A DNA stretch of 64,000 nt from assembly GCA_947258655.1 (NCBI GenBank), contig CAMYJD010000006.1, positions 1 to 64,000 of the forward strand. Reading direction: 5' to 3'. A program made the translations under genes and the position numbers. The notes below the pieces were generated by a model. The model was given only the letters and a program-made list of their open reading frames with translations, was not told where the DNA came from and did not search any database. Shown here in pieces: positions 35,812 through 48,289 of this stretch (positions are counted from its first letter, which is position 1; each line of letters begins with the position of its first letter). This DNA is from an uncultured Gammaproteobacteria bacterium. Lineage in GTDB: Bacteria; Pseudomonadota; Gammaproteobacteria; JAADHQ01.

Positions 35812-36423
35812 ATGGATTTGAATGAAACACAGGTCGATTTTGTCAAGGAAATCTTCAACACGGGTCTGGGTGAGGCCGCAGTAGAGCTGAGCGAACTGGT
35901 CGAGGATGAAGTCCTGTTATCCGTTCCACAATTTAGTCTGATCCCCAGTGAGGAACTGACAAAGCATGTGGCGGTCGGTGAGAAAGACGTTGTTACCACA
36001 GTCACGATGGAATTGATCGGTGATATGTCAGGAAATGGGATGCTGATTTTTCCCGCTGCGAACAGCCTCGATCTGGTGCGCACCATCGTCGAGGAAAGTG
36101 CCGGGCCTGAAAACCTGACCGACCTTGAAGAAGAGGCGCTGTCCGAGATTGCCGGCATTATCCTGAATCATATGGTTACAACGTTTTCCAGTTTCCTGAA
36201 TATTAATGTCAAGACCGGTATGCCGCGATGTCACCAGGACACCCTGAGGCGGATTATGCAGGAATCGTATTTTATCGATGGCATGATCATGTTTATCGGC
36301 ATGAGTTTTGAAGTGAAAAGCCTGAATCTTGCAGGTGATATTCTGTTTTTACAGAACGTCGATACTACAGAGAAGTTCTTGTCACAAGTGGTCGCCGCTC
36401 TTGAAGAGTATGACCTGGACTAA
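35812..36423 (+). CDS. CheC-like phosphatase
   Basis: A 203-aa protein of the CheC/CheX/FliY family, which dephosphorylates CheY-P. Both half-motifs are seen: an N-terminal VKEIFNTGLGEAAVELSEL and a second LSEIAGIILNHMVTTFSSFL, with the E and N pair typical of the active site. Translationally coupled to the CheY-like gene (GGAG 8 bases upstream inside it). It probably resets the signal or, as in related pairs, is a phosphorylation-dependent scaffold. Confidence 0.78.
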   Translation: MDLNETQVDFVKEIFNTGLGEAAVELSELVEDEVLLSVPQFSLIPSEELTKHVAVGEKDVVTTVTMELIGDMSGNGMLIFPAANSLDLVRTIVEESAGPENLTDLEEEALSEIAGIILNHMVTTFSSFLNINVKTGMPRCHQDTLRRIMQESYFIDGMIMFIGMSFEVKSLNLAGDILFLQNVDTTEKFLSQVVAALEEYDLD

Positions 36424-36434
36424 ATGGTGCAGGG

Positions 36435-38597
36435 ATGCCGGATGATGCTTACAATAGCCGAATCATTGAAAATGCCTTTATCGACAGTGATCTCGGTATC
36501 ATCCTTATCAATGAAAACAAGCAAATAACCTTCGTCAATAAATGGATGGAATCGACATCACTCTGCAGTGGTGATGACCTGCTTGGCAAAACATTGGCAG
36601 AAGCATTTGATGGTCAATTAAGCCCCCGACTTATCCGTGCCGTTGATAGTGCCATCGATAATGGCAGAAATTCAGTTCTTTCGCAAAAACTCAACAAATC
36701 ACCATTCCCATTGTACAAGGGTGATGGTGAGCGTCAGTTGGGGCAGAAGCTACAGCAATTAATCTATGTTAAAACCATTAGTGATGCATATGATAACAAT
36801 TATTGCATGGTTGAAATCTTTGATGTAACCGAGGCTGTGCGCAGGGAAAAATCGCTGATAGAGCTTGGAGAGAAATCCAGGTTGGCAGCAGAGCAATTGA
36901 GTATTGAAGAGGCAAAAATGCGTGCCATTCTCAATAGTGCAAAAGACTGCATCATTACTCTGGACGAAAACGGGATCATTCAGACGCTGAATGAATATAC
37001 TGAAACGGTATTCCAGTGCAAGAAAGAACAGTTGTATGATAAAAGCATGGCGACCATTCTGTCACCGGATATGCCTGCAGGCTTGTCGCGTTTTACCGAT
37101 ATGTCCGGGTTGCTTGAATACACGTCAAAACTTAGCGAAGCAGTCGAGTTAAAGGCTGTACGCTGTGTCGATGAAGTCATAGACATCGACCTTACAGTCA
37201 GCAGAATACGTACTGAAGAAGAAAACAGCTACGTCGCGATCATTCGCGACATTACGGAACGCAAGAAGGCCGAAGCTCGACTGCATTACCTGGCTAAATA
37301 TGATCCGCTAACAGGTCTCGCAAATCGGGCACTTTTCCATGAGAGACTGGAGCATGCAATCCAGGTGGCCAAGCGGGAAAATCAAATATTTCCGGTTTTG
37401 TTTCTGGATATTGACAGGTTCAAAAACCTGAACGATACATTGGGACATGATACCGGTGATGCTATTCTGAAAGTGGTGTCCAGGCGCATAAAGGGAAGTC
37501 TGCGTGAAGTCGACACCGTTTGTAGAATGGGTGGTGATGAATTTGTAATAATTATCGAAACGATACATTCAGTGAATGAAGTCAGCAGGATAGCCGAGAA
37601 GATAATTGAAAATATATCCAAACCGATCAGGATTGAGCACAACGAGTTGTTTGTTACCGTGAGCATCGGCATTGCGATCTATCCGGATGACGGAGATGAC
37701 TATACAGCCATCTTCAAGAATGCGGATCTGGCGATGTATGAAGCAAAAGATGAGGGTCGCAATAATTTCCAGTTTTTCTCGCAGGCGATGAATGAGCGCA
37801 TTCAACGTCGCATGTCGATGGAGTCTGACCTGCGTAAGGCTATAGCCGAAAACCAGTTTGTTCTCTATTATCAGCCCCAGGTTGATATCAATAAGAGGTG
37901 TATCAATAGTTGTGAGGCACTGATTCGCTGGATACACCCGGACAAGGGAAATATCCCTCCATTTGAATTTATTCCGCTTGCTGAGGAATCGGGCCTGATA
38001 TGGGATATAGGTAAATATGTTGTCGAGCAGGCCTGCAGGTTTGTCAGCGAAATAACAGGCAGAGGCTGGCATGACTTTGTCATGGCGATCAATATCTCAC
38101 CAAGGCAGTTCCAGCATCCGGATTTTATGTCATTCATAACAGCTGCTTGTGAAAAATATAATATTAGCACTGCCAATATAGAGCTTGAGATTACCGAAGG
38201 CCTGTTGATGGATAATACCGAGCATAGTGTGACGATGCTGAGGCGCCTGTCTGATGCCGGATTTAAGATCTCAATCGATGATTTTGGTACCGGTTATTCA
38301 TCGCTGGCCTATTTGCGTAAATTTCCACTGGACACTCTCAAGATCGATCGTTCATTTGTTATTGATTTACCGGAGAACCCGGATGCGATTGCGGTATCAC
38401 GTGCAATTATAGGGCTTGCGCATAGTCTGCGCTTGCATGTCGTTGCAGAAGGTGTGGAAACGCAGGAGCAAATGGACTTTTTAAGTGTCGAGGGTTGTGA
38501 GTATATACAGGGTTATCTGGTCAGCAAACCAATACCGTCTTCTGATTTCATGGCCTGGCTGGAAGCCTATGCTTGTGATGCAATCGGATCTGAATGA
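36435..38597 (+). CDS. PAS-GGDEF-EAL protein (c-di-GMP metabolism)
   Basis: A 720-aa protein with two PAS-type sensory domains (about 15-130 and 160-280, the second ending DITERKKAEARL), then GGDEF at 366-370 in RMGGDEF and EAL at 494-496 in CEALIRW. Both catalytic motifs are intact, as are the EAL loop DDFGTGYSSL and metal ligands, so cyclase and phosphodiesterase are both possible; which dominates cannot be told. No transmembrane segment. It follows the CheC gene by 11 bases, so the CheY/CheC module probably controls it. Confidence 0.9.
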   Translation: MPDDAYNSRIIENAFIDSDLGIILINENKQITFVNKWMESTSLCSGDDLLGKTLAEAFDGQLSPRLIRAVDSAIDNGRNSVLSQKLNKSPFPLYKGDGERQLGQKLQQLIYVKTISDAYDNNYCMVEIFDVTEAVRREKSLIELGEKSRLAAEQLSIEEAKMRAILNSAKDCIITLDENGIIQTLNEYTETVFQCKKEQLYDKSMATILSPDMPAGLSRFTDMSGLLEYTSKLSEAVELKAVRCVDEVIDIDLTVSRIRTEEENSYVAIIRDITERKKAEARLHYLAKYDPLTGLANRALFHERLEHAIQVAKRENQIFPVLFLDIDRFKNLNDTLGHDTGDAILKVVSRRIKGSLREVDTVCRMGGDEFVIIIETIHSVNEVSRIAEKIIENISKPIRIEHNELFVTVSIGIAIYPDDGDDYTAIFKNADLAMYEAKDEGRNNFQFFSQAMNERIQRRMSMESDLRKAIAENQFVLYYQPQVDINKRCINSCEALIRWIHPDKGNIPPFEFIPLAEESGLIWDIGKYVVEQACRFVSEITGRGWHDFVMAINISPRQFQHPDFMSFITAACEKYNISTANIELEITEGLLMDNTEHSVTMLRRLSDAGFKISIDDFGTGYSSLAYLRKFPLDTLKIDRSFVIDLPENPDAIAVSRAIIGLAHSLRLHVVAEGVETQEQMDFLSVEGCEYIQGYLVSKPIPSSDFMAWLEAYACDAIGSE

Positions 38598-38781
38598 ATG
38601 TTATCAGGCGTGCTACACGCATAAACCCATATGTATAGCTGATTAAACAATTTCGGTATGAAGTAGGGGTGCTTGAATAAAATACATATCTGTTTTTCCT
38701 GGTGCCTTCGTGGTAAGTAATAACAAGCATAAAACATATTCAATGTGTACGATTATGTTCAAACCAATACACATAATAAAA

Positions 38782-38801
38782 AGGCCCGCATTTGCGGGCC
38801 T
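38782..38801 (-). terminator. Intrinsic terminator for the Crp-type gene
   Basis: AGGCCCGCA and TGCGGGCCT form a 9-bp stem with a 2-base loop, followed on the minus strand by a T tract. A second small stem, GCGGGC/GCCCGC (38822-38836), lies between it and the crp-like stop. Confidence 0.8.
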
Positions 38802-38882
38802 CTTTGCCAAAAGGGACTGAGGCGGGCTTTGCCCGCATTTCCATCCCTTTGCTCTTTTAACTTGTATCTTTTCCCTGCCGTT

Positions 38883-39536
38883 TCACCATCCCGGCGGCAA
38901 CTTCTCATTAATAATGATGCGTTTGCTTTCGGAAGTAATATAACCACCTTTCTGCAGATCCTTCATGATCCGACTGACCATTTCGCGTGACGAGCCGATC
39001 ATCCTGGCAATGTCCTGATGGGTCAGTTTCTGGTTAATGACCTGCTTGCCATCGATATCGTCGGCCATGTCCAGCAAGGTCCGGGCGACGCGTCCATAGA
39101 CGTCCATCAAGGCCAGGTTGCGGACACTGTCGGTCAGGCGCCGGATCGTGCGGGTCAGTTCCGATACCAGTTTGCGCGCCATTTCCGGGTGTGCATCCAT
39201 GGCCATATCGAAGTCTTCCTTGGAAATGATCGAAAACTTGCAGGGTTCCATGGTCATGATCGACGCTGAGCGTGGGGCACTGTCGAGGATCGATAATTCA
39301 CCGAAATAATCGCCCGGTCTCATGATCTTCAGAATGACTTCCTTGCCGTCTTCGTTGCTGAGATAGACCTTGACCTTGCCGCTCTGGATGATATACATCG
39401 AGTTGGTGTCATCGCCTTCATTGATGATAATGGCGTTCTTGGGATAGCTTTTGCTTGCGGCATGCGATGCAATGGTCTGTAATTCCCCTTCTTCGAGGTC
39501 GGCAAACAGTGGTATTGTTTTCAGAATCTGTTCCAT
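38883..39536 (-). CDS. Crp/Fnr-family transcriptional regulator
   Basis: A 217-aa regulator. The N-terminal cyclic-nucleotide-binding domain (about 1-115) contains PGDYFGELSILDSAPRSASI, with the Glu, Arg and Ser that contact cyclic nucleotide in Crp. A helix follows, then the helix-turn-helix LTHQDIARMIGSSREMVSRIMK. There are no Fnr-type cysteines, so cAMP or cGMP is a more likely ligand than oxygen. It lies divergent from the CHASE2 nucleotide cyclase gene, a natural source of its ligand. Confidence 0.85.
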   Translation of the reverse strand: MEQILKTIPLFADLEEGELQTIASHAASKSYPKNAIIINEGDDTNSMYIIQSGKVKVYLSNEDGKEVILKIMRPGDYFGELSILDSAPRSASIMTMEPCKFSIISKEDFDMAMDAHPEMARKLVSELTRTIRRLTDSVRNLALMDVYGRVARTLLDMADDIDGKQVINQKLTHQDIARMIGSSREMVSRIMKDLQKGGYITSESKRIIINEKLPPGW

Positions 39537-39742
39537 AGGGTATTTTTCTTTTATTGCATGGTGTATTGGCGCTAGAATTCAGATAAGCGTTGCCTGTAAT
39601 TTAATTCCTTCATCAGGGTTTGGGCACAGTAACGGGAATGATCGTGGATATCGAGTATCGCTACTGATCATCGGGCTCCTGGTGTGTGGTCTCCCCTGAT
39701 GGGGATGTTTATTTATATATAATATAGTATACGGAACACCAT

Positions 39743-41968
39743 TTGCGATATTCAAGGCTTAAAAAGACAATATTGCTGTTTATGGTCACGATAATCGTGG
39801 CCAGCGGCCTGTCCCTGTTGCCTGTTGTGCATGATAGCGAGGAGGATCTGGGCCTGTCGTGGCTGTTCCATGCCCGTGGTCTCAGATCGGCCCCTGATTC
39901 TGTTATTGTTATCAGTATCGATAAATCTTCATCCCGGCACTTCAATTTGCCCAATCTGGCGAGAAAATGGCCGCGTGACCTGCATGCCCGTCTGATCGAC
40001 AGGCTGAACAAGGCCGGGGCCAGGGTTGTTGCCTTCGATGTGCACTTCAAGGACGCCAAGGACCGGCAGCAGGACCTCAAACTGGCCGAGGCGATCGGCG
40101 CATCCGCCAATGTGGTGTTGTTCAGTTTTTTGCAGAAGCAGGTCGTCGAGGCGCGTGATATCCAGGGGCGGGAGTCACGCCTTGTTGTCGATGAGCTGGT
40201 GCCTCCGATAAGCGTTATCGCCGATGCGGCGGTCGCCCTTGCACCCAATCCCCTCCCCAAGGTGCCGGTCAAGGTCAGTCAGTTCTGGAAATTTGTTCCC
40301 GAAGCCGGTGATGCGCCTACATTGCCGGTGCTCGCGTACCAGCTTTACCTGCTGGAGTATTTGCCATCATTCATCGATATGCTGTCGACATTAACAGATA
40401 TGCAGCTGATGCAATATGAGCCGGAGCGAATAGGTAGCAACAACCGGCTTCCGGTATTGATGACAGCATTGCATGAATTGTTCGTGCAGCAACCGGATTT
40501 GAGACAAAGGATGCGAGAACGTATCGCCGTAGTCGACGTCACAGCAGATGTCAGGCGTAACCTGAACAATCTACTCGCATTGTACGCCGGGCCGCCATCG
40601 CAATATATCAGCTACTATGGGCCGGCACGCAGTGTCAGGACAATTCCATTTTATCAGGTGCTGGAGTCCGACCAATACCTGGAAGGCCTGCGCGATAAAC
40701 TCGTATTCATCGGTTTCTCCGAGCACCGGCAATGGGAACAGCAGGACGGTTTCTATAGTGTGTTTTCAAATGAAGAGGGCCTGGATATCAGTGGTGTCGA
40801 GATTACTGCCGCTGCGGCAGCGAATTTGCTCGAAGGTGTATCGGTACGACCGATGACGCTGGGCATGCACTTTCTGGTCATACTGCTGGTCTCGATTATG
40901 CTGGCAATAATATATCTGCGTAGTCGCGGTGTGTGGCTACCGCTTGCGCTGTTTGGCGTGGCCGGCCTGTATTTCCTGCTCGCATGGCAGTTGTTCGCAT
41001 ATAACGGCCTGTGGCTACCCCTGGTCGTGCCCTTACTGATCCAGTTGCCTGTGGTGCTGTTATTGGGAATGACCTGGAACTATCAGGAACTGAACCGTGA
41101 GCGCAAAAACATACAACGCGCCTTTGGTTATTATCTGCCGGAAACAGAAGTTAATCGCCTTGCACGTGATATCACCTCCCATGATCTCGGTGGACAATTG
41201 ATGCATGGAACATGCCTGTCTACCGATGCCCAGCAATACACGACCCTGTCCGAGAAAATGACACCACAACAACTGACGACATTCATGAATGAATATTATG
41301 AATCCATCTTCACGCCGGTGCGTCAACATGCGGGCATAATTTCCGATGTCGTTGGTGACAGCGTCATGGCGTTATGGGCCAGTCCGGCTGAAAACCTGCA
41401 ACAACGTGAACAGGCCGTAAAGGCCGCAATCGCGATAGTCGACAGTGTTGCTGTTTTCAATCAACAGCATCCGGGCAATGAGCTGCCGACGCGTATCGGC
41501 CTGCATTATGGCGTTATGGTGATCGGTAATGTCGGTGCGGTTGATCATTATGAATACCGTGCCGTGGGTGATATCGTCAATACCACATCCCGCATCGAGG
41601 GCATGAGTAAATACCTCGGGGTGCGATTGCTGGCGAGTGCCGATGTGCTTGAAGGTTTGGAGGATTTTGATAGCCGCTTTGTCGGACGTTTTATACTCAA
41701 GGGTAAAACTGTCGGTCTGCCATTGTTTGAGATTGGTGCTCAACACATAGCCACGCGTGCTGAGCGGACGCAATTGTGGCAACAGTTCGCCGCTGCGCTC
41801 GCATTGTTTCAGCAAGGCCTATGGACAGAAGCCGGTGCGGCCTTTGAGCAGATACTGCAAACCTATCCACACGACGGACCCTCCAGTTTCTATCGCCATT
41901 ACTGTGAGCAAAATCGCTTTCAGCCGCCAGAAAATTGGCAGGGTGTTATTCATATGCAAGATAAATGA
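39743..41968 (+). CDS. CHASE2-domain adenylate/guanylate cyclase
   Basis: A 741-aa inner-membrane class III nucleotide cyclase. One N-terminal helix (about 9-27), an extracytoplasmic CHASE2 domain (about 30-340), a cluster of three helices (about 370-440) and a C-terminal cyclase (about 480-660) with metal aspartates in STDAQQYTTLSE and ISDVVGDSVMALW. The beginning is a TTG codon; the next ATG (39782) would cut the first helix. It senses an envelope signal and makes cAMP or cGMP. It is 231 bases before the FecR-TPR-barrel gene and divergent from the Crp-type regulator. Confidence 0.85.
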   Translation: MRYSRLKKTILLFMVTIIVASGLSLLPVVHDSEEDLGLSWLFHARGLRSAPDSVIVISIDKSSSRHFNLPNLARKWPRDLHARLIDRLNKAGARVVAFDVHFKDAKDRQQDLKLAEAIGASANVVLFSFLQKQVVEARDIQGRESRLVVDELVPPISVIADAAVALAPNPLPKVPVKVSQFWKFVPEAGDAPTLPVLAYQLYLLEYLPSFIDMLSTLTDMQLMQYEPERIGSNNRLPVLMTALHELFVQQPDLRQRMRERIAVVDVTADVRRNLNNLLALYAGPPSQYISYYGPARSVRTIPFYQVLESDQYLEGLRDKLVFIGFSEHRQWEQQDGFYSVFSNEEGLDISGVEITAAAAANLLEGVSVRPMTLGMHFLVILLVSIMLAIIYLRSRGVWLPLALFGVAGLYFLLAWQLFAYNGLWLPLVVPLLIQLPVVLLLGMTWNYQELNRERKNIQRAFGYYLPETEVNRLARDITSHDLGGQLMHGTCLSTDAQQYTTLSEKMTPQQLTTFMNEYYESIFTPVRQHAGIISDVVGDSVMALWASPAENLQQREQAVKAAIAIVDSVAVFNQQHPGNELPTRIGLHYGVMVIGNVGAVDHYEYRAVGDIVNTTSRIEGMSKYLGVRLLASADVLEGLEDFDSRFVGRFILKGKTVGLPLFEIGAQHIATRAERTQLWQQFAAALALFQQGLWTEAGAAFEQILQTYPHDGPSSFYRHYCEQNRFQPPENWQGVIHMQDK

Positions 41969-42199
41969 TCTTCTCGATACGTTAAAAGCAGCTTTATAAA
42001 GCATGCCATAGCATATTGCCGCACCGGCGGATGTGAACTAATCACCTTTTGCCTGTTAAAAAAAGCGATTGAATGCATATTTTTATGGCAGTACAATCGT
42101 TGTCAATAATAAAATCTTGTCGCAATTAATAATAAAGAGTGTTGCGGCATTAACCAGATTGGCGGTATTGCCAGGAATCTGGGGCTGGGGTGAGAAAAT

Positions 42200-45100
42200 A
42201 TGCACGTAGTGAAGCGCACTATGACAGTTTGTCTGGAGAGGGGATTTTCTGAGGCTTGCAGGCTTTTGGTGTCCCTGTTCGTGCTCCTGTTTTCATCATC
42301 CAGTTACGCTACCTGTACTGACTGGATTGCCCGGGTGGTGTCCATCCAGGGCAATGTCGATGTACGTGTTGTAAACACGGCGCAATGGAAGCCGGTTGAA
42401 TTGCAGCAGGTATATTGTAGCGGCGACACGCTACGTGTACAGGCCAACAGCCGCGCCGCACTGGAACTGCATAACGATACGATCCTGCGCCTGAACCAGA
42501 ACTCGACACTGGTATTGTCCGGCCCCAAAAAGGAGGCCTCCTGGCTCGATCTGCTCAAAGGCTCATTGCATTCGATCAGTCGTGTCCCGCGCTCCCTGAA
42601 AATCGAGACACCGTTCGTCAATGCGGCCGTCGAAGGCACAGAGTTTCTGGTCCAGGTCGATAGCGACAACACCCTGGTCGGTGTGATCGAAGGCAAGGTT
42701 GCAGTTGCCAATGAATTCGGACGTATCCTGCTGGCGAAAGACCAGTCGGCCATTACCTATAAGGGTAAGGCGCCGGTGCTGCGCCTGGATATTCGTCCCG
42801 CCGACAGTGTGCAATGGTCACTGTATTACCCATCCCTGAATGTCGTCGCGCTTAAGCCGGCCGAAGACCTGCTGCGGGTTGGTCAGGTCGATGCCGCCAG
42901 GTCATTATTGCAACAGCAAAGCGGTGCCGAGGCACTGGCACTGCGCAGTATTATCGCGATTGCCGGAAACAACAAGGATGCGGCGCTGCAGCTCGCCGAA
43001 CAGGCCATCCAGGCAGATACATCCTCGGCTGTCACGCATCTGGCGCATTCCTATGCGCTGCAGGCGCGCTTCGATCTGCCTGCGGCAATGAAAGCAGCAG
43101 AACAGGCCATCAAGCAGGATACAAAGGATGCCATCGCCTGGGCCAGGCTGGCCGAATTGCATCTGTCACTTGAAGAGCTGGATAAAGGCCTGGCCGCGGC
43201 AGGACGTGCAGTTGAACTTGATCCTCAACTGGCACGTACCCAAACCATGCTCGGATTTGCCTACCTGTTGCAATACAGTACAGCCGAGGCCAAAGCCGCC
43301 TTCAAGCGCTCCATTGAACTGGACTCTGCCGATCCGCTTGCACGTCTCGGTAATGGTCTGGCAACTATCCGCGAAGGGAATCTGGTCCAGGGTCGGCGCG
43401 AGATAGAAATTGCTGCGAGCCTGGACGCCAATAATTCACAGATACGCAGTTACCTGGGTAAGGCCTATCTGGAGGAAAAGCGTAACCGACTTGCCGCAGA
43501 ACAGTTCGCCCTGGCCAAGGAGATGGACCCGAAGGATCCAACGCCATGGTTATATAGTGCACTTCTGAAGCACACGCAGAACAGGCCTGTAGACGCCCTG
43601 CGTGAACTGGAACATTCAATCAGACTGAATAACAACCGCGCGGTCTATCGTTCCAGTTTGTTGCTGGATAGTGATCAGGCTACACGTGGTGCAGGTCTTG
43701 GGCGTATCTATCAGGATCTGGGCTTTGAGCAGCTTGCCTTGAATGAGGCGACGAAGTCGCTGGCCGCCGATCAGGCCAATGCCTCGGCGCATCGTTTACT
43801 GGCCGATGCCTATCTGTCCAGAACACAGCATGAAATCGCGCGTGTCAGTGAACTGTTGCAGGCGCAAATGTTGCAGCCGATCAACACGACTCCACTGCAA
43901 CCACAAATGAGTGAAAGTACGCTGACGTTGCTGAATAATCTTGGTACCGATAGCACCGGATTTAACGAATACAGCTCGTTGTTCATGCGTAACCAGGCCA
44001 GGGTTGGAACAAATGTTTTATCTGCCGGTAATAACACATTCGGCGGTGAATTCATTGTATCGGGTGTGATGGACAAGTTTTCGATCAGTGCCGCCAAGTA
44101 CAGTTATGAAACCGATGGCTTTCACGCGAATAACGAAGATGACCAGCTGCTGGAAAATGTTTTCCTGCAGTATGCCGCAACACCCAGCACTAGTTTGTTG
44201 TTCGAGATCAGTAATAATGACCGTGAGTATGGTGATCTGCTGAGATTTGATCCAGCTAATTTTTCCCGGACCTTGAATAATATTCGTGATGTCAGCCGGA
44301 GAAGAGTGGGTCTGACCCACAGATTTTCTCCGCGATCCATGCTGTTGTTGACTGCAATGAAGGAGGACCGGTTTCAGCAAAGATTGCAGGGCGCTGGATT
44401 TTTAACCATCAGAGATGATACGGATTTTGATTCAGTGGCCAAGGAGATGAGGTATATTGTTGATGAGGACCTATGGGATTTAACATTTGGCTATTCATAT
44501 AACAAATCAACTTCATCAGGCATACAGCGCAGACCTTTTAGTCCTCCAAGATCTGTGTCAAATCGCCTTAGCAACAGTACAGTTTATGCCTATTTGTACC
44601 CCGTATTGGATGATATGCGCGTAACTGTCGGAATGACGCGGGATCATTTTAAGTCAACGAGTGGTAATCGCGATAATAAGGCTAATTCGAAAAAATTTGG
44701 CCTGGAGCTGGATCTGAATTCTGATGCTGTTTTCCGCCTGGGCTATTTTGAGACATTTACGCGTCCGATTTTGAATAATCAAACACTCGAGCCTACATCT
44801 GTTTCAGGTTTTAACCAGTTTTACGATGATGCAAACGGTACTCGGGCAAAAAACCGCGCTGTTGCGCTGGATTATCGCTTAAGTGACAAGCTCAAGTCAG
44901 GTGTTGAAATTAGAGAACGCGATTTACGTGTTCCATTTGCGCTTAATGGGCCGATCCCAACCACGGGCATTGCTGACTGGAATAGTGCTTCATCAAGCAT
45001 GTATGCATATTGGTTGCCGCGAAATGATCTGGCGGTCAATATTGGTATTAACCAGGAAAAGCTTGACCGCGACCGGTCTTTAACGACAAATGTAAGGCTG

Positions 45101-45421
45101 CTTAATAGCACGATATACCGTCTTCCTATTGGTATTAACTGGTTCCATGATTCAGGCTGGATTGGGCGGGCCAAGTTGACTTATGTAAAACAGAAAGCTC
45201 AATTCATTGATATTTTTACTAATGGTGTCAGTTCGGGGCGCGATAATTTTGTCGTAGTCGATGCTGATATCGAATACCGCTTTCGTAATGGAATGGGTAG
45301 TTTTAGTTTGGGTGCCTTGAATCTGTTTGACGAGAGCTTTAATTATCAAGATGCCGATGAAAACCGGCAGTTATTTTCTCCAGGAAGAGTTGCATTTATG
45401 CGTTTGAACTTGTTGTTTTAA
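42200..45421 (+). CDS. FecR/TPR/outer-membrane-barrel protein
   Basis: A 1073-aa exported protein of three parts. A signal peptide (cleavage near SYA) precedes a FecR-type domain (about 45-160) with LRLNQNSTLVL and NAAVEGTEFLVQV. Then come about eight TPR units (about 225-540). The last 500 residues alternate as barrel strands and end RLNLLF with a terminal Phe, so the protein is anchored in the outer membrane. FecR/CHASE2 genes are often neighbours, suggesting the protein feeds the cyclase an envelope signal. DNA from about 44380 is visibly more AT-rich than the first half. Confidence 0.75.
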   Translation: MHVVKRTMTVCLERGFSEACRLLVSLFVLLFSSSSYATCTDWIARVVSIQGNVDVRVVNTAQWKPVELQQVYCSGDTLRVQANSRAALELHNDTILRLNQNSTLVLSGPKKEASWLDLLKGSLHSISRVPRSLKIETPFVNAAVEGTEFLVQVDSDNTLVGVIEGKVAVANEFGRILLAKDQSAITYKGKAPVLRLDIRPADSVQWSLYYPSLNVVALKPAEDLLRVGQVDAARSLLQQQSGAEALALRSIIAIAGNNKDAALQLAEQAIQADTSSAVTHLAHSYALQARFDLPAAMKAAEQAIKQDTKDAIAWARLAELHLSLEELDKGLAAAGRAVELDPQLARTQTMLGFAYLLQYSTAEAKAAFKRSIELDSADPLARLGNGLATIREGNLVQGRREIEIAASLDANNSQIRSYLGKAYLEEKRNRLAAEQFALAKEMDPKDPTPWLYSALLKHTQNRPVDALRELEHSIRLNNNRAVYRSSLLLDSDQATRGAGLGRIYQDLGFEQLALNEATKSLAADQANASAHRLLADAYLSRTQHEIARVSELLQAQMLQPINTTPLQPQMSESTLTLLNNLGTDSTGFNEYSSLFMRNQARVGTNVLSAGNNTFGGEFIVSGVMDKFSISAAKYSYETDGFHANNEDDQLLENVFLQYAATPSTSLLFEISNNDREYGDLLRFDPANFSRTLNNIRDVSRRRVGLTHRFSPRSMLLLTAMKEDRFQQRLQGAGFLTIRDDTDFDSVAKEMRYIVDEDLWDLTFGYSYNKSTSSGIQRRPFSPPRSVSNRLSNSTVYAYLYPVLDDMRVTVGMTRDHFKSTSGNRDNKANSKKFGLELDLNSDAVFRLGYFETFTRPILNNQTLEPTSVSGFNQFYDDANGTRAKNRAVALDYRLSDKLKSGVEIRERDLRVPFALNGPIPTTGIADWNSASSSMYAYWLPRNDLAVNIGINQEKLDRDRSLTTNVRLLNSTIYRLPIGINWFHDSGWIGRAKLTYVKQKAQFIDIFTNGVSSGRDNFVVVDADIEYRFRNGMGSFSLGALNLFDESFNYQDADENRQLFSPGRVAFMRLNLLF

Positions 45422-46251: not shown

Positions 46252-46614
46252 TTACTGGACGCTGCCAAATGATTCGCTGGTGCTGTCGGCGGGTGCATGC
46301 AGACCGGCCAGACGGCAGCCCTGGGCAACCGGGCCCTTCGGCATGACCGTATACAGGTATTTGATGCCGCCTTCATCATGAAATTTCTCTTCCAGTGCAT
46401 CATGCAGCTCGCGAATATGCACCTTGTCGTGCTTGGCGTAGTATTCCTGCAGTCCTATGATCGTCTGCCAGTGGGCCTCTTCCAGTGTTATACCCTCTTT
46501 ATCGGCCTGTGCCTCGGCGTCGGCACTGGTCCAGCCCTCGGGCGCATGCGGGAACAAGGCTTCTTTGTGTGTACTGTTTTCAGGATTCAGTTGTTGAATA
46601 ATGGACTCAGACAT
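46252..46614 (-). CDS. DsrC/TusE-family sulfur-carrier-like protein with one cysteine
   Basis: A 120-aa protein of the DsrC/TusE family. The conserved helix-turn region (DAEAQADKEGITLEEAHWQTIIGLQEYY) and LYTVMPKGPVAQGCRLAGL are clear. Dissimilatory DsrC carries two cysteines in its mobile C-terminal arm; here only the first (GCRLAGL) is present and the tail continues for 17 residues to SFGSVQ without the penultimate cysteine. It resembles TusE or a regulatory paralogue rather than the trisulfide-forming DsrC. GGAGAAA 7 bases upstream supports the start. No dsrAB is in the window. Confidence 0.78.
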   Translation of the reverse strand: MSESIIQQLNPENSTHKEALFPHAPEGWTSADAEAQADKEGITLEEAHWQTIIGLQEYYAKHDKVHIRELHDALEEKFHDEGGIKYLYTVMPKGPVAQGCRLAGLHAPADSTSESFGSVQ

Positions 46615-46964
46615 AGATATTTCTCCGAATTGACGTGTGGTTCCGGGCTTTTTGTCTGCCCTCATCATTAATAATAGACGCTGATTACTGAACTGCCAGT
46701 GCCGCTATGTTGCACTCCGGTTAATAGTCTGAACAGATGTAAGTCCAGATTTATTAGATACTGCTAATATGCTGTTTCGGTCGCACTGTCCGGCCATCAC
46801 ATGCCAGCCCGGCGCACTCACAGGTGAGGTAACGATCCAGTCCCCTTCGAGCTGCCCGGCAATCCGGGTAATTTGTCACAAATCGGACGGTGACGTTTCA
46901 CAGTCATAAGGGAGTAATTTATTCAAAATAATATGCAAGACAACATGCAACGGGAAGGAAATAC
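46615..46964. other. Divergent intergenic region
   Basis: A 350-bp divergent gap. CCCGG/CCGGG (around 46857-46870) can form a short stem followed by TAATTT, but it is too small to call. Nothing else was recognised. Confidence 0.35.
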
Positions 46965-47309
46965 ATGAAACAGCAGGAAATCAATGCAACGATCATCATT
47001 AAATCGCCGGATGAGGTCGACAGCAATCGCGGCAAGATCAGTGCACAGCAGGCACGCCTGGGTGATTATCTCCCCGACCTGCAGACTGTTATCGATACCG
47101 CACGCTATTTTCGTGACGCGGGTTTTAATGTCAGGCCGAGGCAGAACTGTATCAATATCGCCGGATCGACTACGCAGTTCGAGGCCATGTTCGGTGTGCA
47201 GTTCGGACAGCAGATGGATATGGATGGCGTCGGTTATCGATATGTGCCGGAATTATTGAAGGACATTCTGGTCAGGATTATTTTTCCTGGCTTATGGAGC
47301 CATGCGTAA
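46965..47309 (+). CDS. Stand-alone S53-propeptide-like protein
   Basis: A 114-aa protein that resembles the pro-kumamolisin activation domain of S53 (sedolisin) peptidases: VIDTARYFRDAGFNV, then NCINIAGSTTQFEAMFGVQFG, then YRYVPELLKDIL with a final GL. In sedolisins this domain is followed by the peptidase; here the gene ends. No signal peptide. It is probably a binding or inhibitory module. AAGGAA lies 4 bases before the ATG, and an intrinsic terminator follows at 47407. Confidence 0.55.
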   Translation: MKQQEINATIIIKSPDEVDSNRGKISAQQARLGDYLPDLQTVIDTARYFRDAGFNVRPRQNCINIAGSTTQFEAMFGVQFGQQMDMDGVGYRYVPELLKDILVRIIFPGLWSHA

Positions 47310-47406
47310 TAGTGCCTGTATTTGTCAGGATGTAACGATTCACAGGGAGTACACAAAGGAACTGCGGGGTCAATGGATGAATGACCGGGTCAGGGACGCT
47401 TGTAAA

Positions 47407-47436
47407 GGGTATCCAACGGAATGGATGCCCTTTTTT
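47407..47436 (+). terminator. Intrinsic terminator
   Basis: GGGTATCCA and TGGATGCCC form a 9-bp stem (one G-U pair) around six bases, followed by six T. It ends the S53-propeptide-like transcript, about 100 bases past its stop. Confidence 0.82.
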
Positions 47437-47617
47437 ATTCCACTATACGCTCGCCCCAGATGGTTAATATTTCACAAATTCGCTGTTAATTAGGCTACCG
47501 CATTAAATCACGACTATGGCGACAATATCCTTAAAGGAACAATTGCAAATAAATCGAATATCTATTGCTTCAGGAGCTGACAGTGGTGGGTATAAACACG
47601 GGAAAAGGGGAAAGACC

Positions 47618-48289
47618 ATGATGGCTCAAACAAACATACTGGATTTCAGGGCGCCGGTGAATGAATCAGCAGATGATGCGTTACGCGGCGTGTGGAAGGA
47701 TTTTATCGGCAGTGTTGCCGGGATCGGCAAGGGTATCTATCACAGTGATATCGAAATGAACTCGGTGCTGAATCATAATCTGGTGCTGGTGCATTCGCTG
47801 TTGATGAATACATCGCATTACCGCGAACTGGTAAACAGTTCTTTTCGACGCCTGACGCGCACAAAAAACTGGGGCTGGAAGGCTGTTTATGAGGACGAGT
47901 TGGGCAAGACCGGCCTGTTCTCTGTCTACAAGAATGCACCGGTGCCATTGCATGACCATCCGGGAACAAGGGGGGCGATGATGGTCGTGGAAGGGGAGGT
48001 CGAGGTCGAGCGCTTTACGTTAAAGGAAGAATATCGTCGTCGCAATGAATCCGGCCTGGTGGAGCTGCAACGCTGTGACAAGAAGGTGCTGAAACCATAT
48101 GACGTCACCTGGTTTGGGCCGGATCAATGCAATGTGCATGGTATGCAGGCGTTGACTGAGCAATGCGTCATGCTCAAGGTGCAGTTGTTGCAGATGAAGG
48201 CCGAGCGTTCCTGGTATTTTCCGGTGTTCTCGTTCGAGCAGGACCAGGAAGTGCTGTCGGCGCGTCGTATCGTTAGCCGTTATCTGTAG
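47618..48289 (+). CDS. Cupin protein, thiol-dioxygenase-like
   Basis: A 223-aa cytoplasmic cupin. VPLHDHPGTRGAMMVVEG supplies the first two histidines, and NVHGMQALTE the third; the arrangement matches the three-histidine iron site of cysteine/cysteamine dioxygenases (PCO/ADO type), which oxidise thiols to sulfinates with O2. The frame is open from 47516, but GGGGAAAG before the ATG pair at 47618 and the start of the helix there fit best. The substrate (free thiol or N-terminal cysteine) is not deducible. It shares its direction with the Sel1 gene 24 bases downstream. Confidence 0.62.
   Translation: MMAQTNILDFRAPVNESADDALRGVWKDFIGSVAGIGKGIYHSDIEMNSVLNHNLVLVHSLLMNTSHYRELVNSSFRRLTRTKNWGWKAVYEDELGKTGLFSVYKNAPVPLHDHPGTRGAMMVVEGEVEVERFTLKEEYRRRNESGLVELQRCDKKVLKPYDVTWFGPDQCNVHGMQALTEQCVMLKVQLLQMKAERSWYFPVFSFEQDQEVLSARRIVSRYL

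Follow-up and report, generated by a model that had tools for sequence, protein, structure and literature searches.

The window analysed here is a stretch of 64,000 nucleotides (contig CAMYJD010000006.1, positions 1 to 64,000, assembly GCA_947258655.1) from an uncultured Gammaproteobacteria bacterium of the lineage JAADHQ01. It contains three neighbouring genes encoding a Crp-family regulator, a CHASE2-class III nucleotide cyclase, and an outer-membrane protein that combines a FecR domain, tetratricopeptide repeats (TPRs) and a β-barrel. Judged from sequence comparison, predicted structures and gene neighbourhood, these genes probably encode a transenvelope signalling unit of the same kind as NsrA-CyaK-Clr of Sinorhizobium meliloti; we put the probability at roughly 80%. 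The circuit type is already known, and what differs here is the altered nucleotide site of the cyclase and the linked, possibly matching Crp.

In such a unit the surface loops of the barrel, which is plug-less and of the TonB-receptor type, would bind a ligand, and the periplasmic TPR arm and the FecR domain of the same protein would touch the inner-membrane cyclase at its CHASE2 domain. This contact would alter the activity of the cyclase, the divergently encoded Crp-family protein would bind the resulting cyclic nucleotide, and the nucleotide-bound Crp would change the transcription of its target genes. The initial annotation, made from the letters of the DNA, had named the same three genes and proposed that they act as one circuit. 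The open reading frames lie exactly where it had placed them (Table 1), and Pfam domains and a modelled barrel agree with its assignments.

Conservation and linkage of the three genes

The genes were searched for in 94 related genomes. A cyclase ortholog was defined by an E-value below 1e-100, while the barrel protein and the Crp were counted as present at 1e-20 or better and 2e-55 or better, respectively, cut-offs that were set after a gap in the scores had been seen. Thirteen of the 94 genomes encode a cyclase ortholog. All 13 also encode the barrel protein, compared to two of the 81 cyclase-negative genomes (Fisher 3.5e-14), and all 13 encode the Crp, compared to 10 of the 81 (Fisher 3.8e-10); both p-values overstate independence because the genomes are related. 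In G031, G083, and G002 the locus is truncated by a contig end. The co-occurrence on which the initial annotation had staked its proposal is thus found.

A wider scan covered 80 named loci, the best 80 of 281. Downstream of the cyclase gene, and within 3 kb of it, the barrel gene is found in 65 of the 70 loci that have at least 1 kb of sequence there. The other five are L058, where a barrel gene is found 5.6 kb further on, L089, where there are only 1,055 bases, L105, which has a partial barrel gene on the other strand, L093, and L096. When the 779 non-overlapping open reading frames of these loci were clustered without regard to function, the only recurring families were the cyclase (80 loci), the barrel protein (71), and the Crp (45), the next largest family reaching seven. 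The grouping of the three genes far exceeds chance. Pairwise distances for 22 loci are correlated between cyclase and barrel (r 0.91) and between cyclase and Crp (0.84), which shared descent alone could explain.

The cyclase and the barrel protein might be a true pair while the Crp is a separate protein that answers to general cyclic AMP (cAMP) and is a neighbour by chance in the Gammaproteobacteria. The presence of such a Crp in the 10 relatives without a cyclase ortholog would fit this, and so would the group distribution outside the Gammaproteobacteria: where 1.2 kb or more of upstream sequence is available (63 loci) the Crp gene is adjacent in 29, but these comprise none of five in Betaproteobacteria and two of 24 in the remaining groups. 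However, adjacency is found in 27 of the 34 gammaproteobacterial loci with room, every cyclase-positive genome has the Crp, and the linked genes are nearly uniform in orientation, 31 of 34 being divergent and three codirectional. The linked Crp proteins also share base contacts (Leu in 33 of 34, Thr in 34 of 34) that differ from the Thr-Ser of the canonical CRP in the same genome. A separate regulator of this kind is unlikely.

In two loci, L134 and L039 (G047), from a Nitrosomonas and a gammaproteobacterium, a single CHASE2 cyclase gene is followed by a tandem pair of FecR-TPR-barrel genes, possibly representing two inputs for one cyclase. It was also considered whether every CHASE2 cyclase has a barrel neighbour. 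This was rejected, since a tblastn search with the window protein found no FecR-TPR-barrel in six loci (L047-L052) where relatives encode other CHASE2-type cyclases. The one FecR protein nearby is a short one near L049; the Pfam scan of these six loci covered 10 neighbour genes.

The barrel protein and related signalling systems

The third protein has Pfam matches to FecR (4.6e-16) and to several TPR models, while the barrel is without a Pfam call. Its AlphaFold2 model has a mean predicted local distance difference test (pLDDT) score of 83.8 and a predicted template modelling score of 0.81, and displays a FecR domain of β-structure followed by TPR helices and 22 barrel strands. The barrel matches found by Foldseek and VIA-align are TonB-dependent receptors, such as FptA, FhuE, FpvA, FecA, and PirA. 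PirA aligns with a Z-score of 19.2 and a root-mean-square deviation (rmsd) of 3.1 over 410 residues, and FecA with 17.5 and 3.5 over 460 residues. The modelled barrel thus has the strand number of a TonB-dependent receptor without the N-terminal plug: no plug family was found in Pfam to an E-value of 0.01, and only about 40 residues separate the last TPR helix from the first strand.

The closest known system is that of S. meliloti, where the CHASE2 cyclases CyaD1, CyaD2, and CyaK are described as responding to a plant signal via the outer-membrane barrel protein NsrA and as acting on the Crp-family protein Clr (PMC13001267, PMC7529298). The gene before cyaK in the pSymB record CP130050 encodes a protein of 1190 amino acids with a FecR domain and TPRs, which fits the published position of the NsrA barrel at residues 600-1200. 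When compared using hhalign, the barrel family of the window matches this FecR protein with a probability of 99.9 and an E-value of 7.7e-31 over 977 columns, and the cyclase matches CyaK with a probability of 100 and an E-value of 7.7e-46. From its place and length, we take the gene before cyaK to be nsrA.

Both systems thus have a FecR-TPR-barrel protein of the outer membrane, an adjoining CHASE2 class III cyclase and a Crp-family effector. They differ in that the cyclase gene precedes the barrel gene in the window, while the FecR gene precedes cyaK in S. meliloti, and in that the Crp gene is linked to the pair in the window. The base-specifying residues are Asp535 and Arg606 where CyaK has Lys and Ser, and the Crp pocket has Leu-Thr where Clr has a TT motif. 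Since the base-specifying residues are not of the adenylate type found in CyaK, the window system is classified as a variant working like the NsrA-CyaK-Clr circuit and not as a plain member.

Related arrangements are known from other groups. Campylobacterota clusters have been described in which a CHASE2 cyclase is found with a FecR-domain outer-membrane protein (PMC9239204); going by that description, they differ from the window in that the TPR protein is a separate one and a phosphodiesterase is present. The FecA-FecR-FecI system also combines a barrel of the TonB-receptor type and a FecR domain in one signalling chain, but in the window the FecR domain is fused to a plug-less barrel via TPRs, and a cyclase and a Crp replace the sigma factor. 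Among the papers listed by literature searches on CHASE2, FecR, and cyclase themes, none was seen to concern cyclases with the Asp-Arg pair or the three genes with a linked Crp.

The two relatives that have the barrel protein but no cyclase ortholog are G004, where the gene lies on a contig fragment of 3.7 kb, and G070. In the latter (L196, 2709-9803) the barrel gene is followed by a gene encoding a CHASE2-HisKA-HATPase protein (Pfam: CHASE2 6.4e-55, HATPase 1e-25) and by one encoding a sigma54 response regulator. As the barrel gene here stands beside a CHASE2 histidine kinase, it seems to track CHASE2 and not the output. This single case suggests that the barrel protein is an input for CHASE2 whatever the output may be. 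The Burkholderia BiofilmReg operon, in which a LysM-FecR protein has been described together with a CHASE2 kinase (PMC5192318), fits the same theme. It resembles the window in that a CHASE2 sensor adjoins a periplasmic FecR-domain protein, and differs in its kinase output and response regulator and in that its FecR protein carries LysM instead of a TPR-barrel.

Several observations weigh against a single circuit of three components. The Crp gene is not adjacent in 34 of the 63 loci with room and is unlinked in G047, and in G090 the cyclase gene is found on a separate contig, while the Crp and barrel genes are adjacent on one contig. The stand-alone FecR gene smc02177 of S. meliloti is reported to be dispensable for signal perception, so a FecR domain as such proves nothing. 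Neither does the region between the divergent Crp and cyclase genes, which is 206 bases long, contain a canonical CRP site, the best match there being 6 of 10 positions. Allowing up to two mismatches to TGTGAN6TCACA, the window has 21 matches compared to 31.8 expected, none of them in this region, and none of the spacers from 4 to 8 is enriched across 32 Crp-cyclase regions. The Crp sites that the initial annotation had expected here thus do not rise above chance. Its proposal of one circuit is strongly supported by the conserved linkage, the exchange of cyclase for kinase in G070 and the NsrA-CyaK-Clr precedent; the Crp site and cAMP as the messenger are not supported, and a direct contact between FecR-TPR and CHASE2 is an inference.

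The nucleotide and its receptor

The cyclase has Pfam matches to CHASE2 (8.1e-27) and Guanylate_cyc (7.8e-17), and its model (mean pLDDT 87.2) displays N-terminal helices, the CHASE2 region, further transmembrane helices and a class III domain. The structures closest to this last domain are CyaB, Cya2, and CyaC, with Z-scores of 21.9, 21.4, and 21.3 and rmsd values of 2.1-2.4 over 184-190 residues. The enzyme has the fold, the two metal-binding Asp residues and the transition-state Asn and Arg of class III cyclases. Its non-canonical base-specifying residues might suggest a degenerate, inactive sensor. However, the metal-binding residues (Asp495 and Asp539) and Arg617 are found in 80 of 80 homologs and Asn613 in 77, over several phyla, and the unusual Asp-Arg pair is itself conserved (63 of 80, Arg having been in one search pattern). 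It is very improbable that the cyclase has lost its activity.

The position of the adenine-recognising Lys is occupied by Asp in 68 of the 80 homologs, Asn in seven, Glu in three, and Gln in two. The second base-specifying position has Arg in 72, Thr in five, and other residues in three, a count that is biased because Arg was part of the pattern used in the homolog scan, while Asp was in no pattern. The base-specifying pair of class III adenylate cyclases, Lys with Asp, Thr, or Ser, is thus not found. An acidic residue occupies the Lys site in 71 homologs and Asn or Gln in nine; the usual residue of guanylate cyclases at this site is Glu.

In spite of this altered site the cyclase might make cAMP and the system be a plain gammaproteobacterial copy of NsrA-CyaK-Clr. 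The homology to CyaK would agree with this, and an acidic or amide residue at the Lys site is compatible with ATP use in some class III enzymes, such as Rv1900c and Rv0386. On the other hand, Lys is found in none of the homologs, Asp at this site would repel N1 of adenine, and Arg would be unable to accept from N6. The closest sequences in PDB belong to the guanylyl cyclase Cya2 and to a construct based on it; the Cya2 chain has Glu in the position of Asp535. Production of cAMP is a possibility to be taken seriously, though less likely than not. The adenine pair's arrangement of donor and acceptor would be inverted by Asp and Arg, which should suit guanine. Pairs of Glu with Lys or Arg have been predicted to be of the GTP type (PMC4886424).

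The Crp has Pfam matches to cNMP_binding (5.7e-27) and HTH_Crp_2 (1e-17). As the initial annotation had claimed, it keeps the residues for cyclic-nucleotide binding and is divergent from the cyclase: the phosphate cassette (FGE...RS) is intact, and among the 34 linked homologs FGE and Arg are found in all and Ser in 33. The base contacts of CRP, which we take to be Thr127 and Ser128 with the register obtained by alignment, are not retained, the window protein having Leu134-Thr135. Leu or Ile at position 127 has been described as frequent among CRP* alleles and is thought to reduce the need for cAMP (PMC2743635), and Leu in the window protein could therefore also mean a weak dependence on the base. 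When 12 Crp loci were examined, three more such Crp genes were found near other cyclases (G069, G064, and G008). These cyclases also lack the Lys and have Asp, Gln, and Glu, respectively, the alignment being rough for G064 and G008. In L195 (2489-6685, G064) and L200 (5547-9132, G008) the Crp adjoins zinc ribbon-AAA-TPR or TPR-bearing cyclases.

The same genome encodes two other cyclases with a canonical Lys/Thr pair (L002 and L003) and a second CRP paralog with the canonical Thr-Ser (L136). The three genes might accordingly be a private circuit that does not use cAMP and perhaps uses cGMP, as the Asp/Arg base site, the Leu-Thr Crp, these canonical proteins and the cyclases lacking Lys beside related Crp genes would all be in keeping with this. 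The initial annotation had allowed either cAMP or cGMP; cAMP finds no support, since the base-specifying residues are unlike those of adenylate cyclases. We tentatively propose, at somewhat less than even odds, that a widespread sister lineage of CyaK-type cyclases has exchanged its base-recognition pair (Lys with an acceptor for Asp with a donor) and become specific for GTP. An outer-membrane receptor would then drive a private cGMP circuit that is read by a dedicated Leu-Thr Crp and is kept apart from the cell's own cAMP-CRP system.

Control elements and neighbouring genes

The features of the locus are listed in Table 1. The cyclase gene starts with TTG, the sole standard start codon to be met before an in-frame stop; this codon is kept in four of four genus members, and perhaps expression is held low in this way. 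In the promoter-like sequence before the barrel gene, the TTGAAT hexamer is invariant across the four genus members, as are most positions of the second hexamer. A palindrome is found 22 bases before it, shared with only G003 of the three other genus members, and may be a Crp site or a chance occurrence. In 29 cyclase-barrel regions from loci with a Crp, spacer 5 is found in seven compared to 2.9 expected (standard deviation 1.5), an excess that counts as weak because it is one of 15 combinations tried.

Table 1. Position of the three genes, their domains and possible control elements in the window
Feature	Position	Strand	Basis or remark
Terminator-like hairpin, 12 pairs, 7 G-C	38778..38805	-	3' of the Crp gene; consensus scan only
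Crp-family regulator, 217 aa	38883..39536	-	Open reading frame, Pfam; Leu134-Thr135 at positions equivalent to CRP 127/128
Divergent intergenic region	39537..39742		CRP-type palindrome not above chance
CHASE2-class III nucleotide cyclase, 741 aa	39743..41968	+	Open reading frame, Pfam, model
CHASE2 domain, residues 33-387	39839..40903	+	Pfam, model; predicted periplasmic
Cyclase domain, residues 493-655	41219..41707	+	Pfam, alignment, structure comparison
Codon of Asp535, base-specifying Lys position	41345..41347	+	Alignment
Codon of Arg606, second base-specifying position	41558..41560	+	Alignment
TGTGA-N5-TCACC palindrome, weak candidate Crp-family site	42032..42046		Upstream of the barrel gene
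Promoter-like TTGAAT-17-TACAAT	42069..42097	+	Consensus scan and genus comparison
FecR-TPR-barrel protein, 1073 aa, NsrA-like putative outer-membrane receptor	42200..45421	+	Open reading frame, Pfam, model, profile comparison
FecR domain, residues 76-167	42425..42700	+	Pfam
TPR helices, residues 200-558	42797..43873	+	Pfam, model
22-strand β-barrel, residues 599-1072, TonB-receptor type, plug-less	43994..45415	+	Model, structure matches

Just past the terminator of the Crp gene, genes encoding a CheC-like phosphatase and a PAS-GGDEF-EAL protein are found (35812-38597). They were considered as members of the unit and rejected, as no such family recurs beside the three genes in the 80 loci. On the other side, the region 46252-48289 encodes a DsrC-like protein and a relative of the PCO_ADO thiol dioxygenases according to Pfam, suggestive of sulfur metabolism.

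To our knowledge, the stimulation of CHASE2 domains is poorly known, and few bacterial cGMP pathways have been proven. The pairing of a FecR-TPR-barrel protein with CHASE2 over several phyla, in one case with a kinase output, points to an input from the outer membrane that is general to CHASE2 sensors. The two proteins constitute a defined pair for contact studies. Should the altered base site stand for cGMP, this nucleotide would have a wider reach in bacteria, and the cyclase and the Crp would be a matched cyclase-receptor pair.

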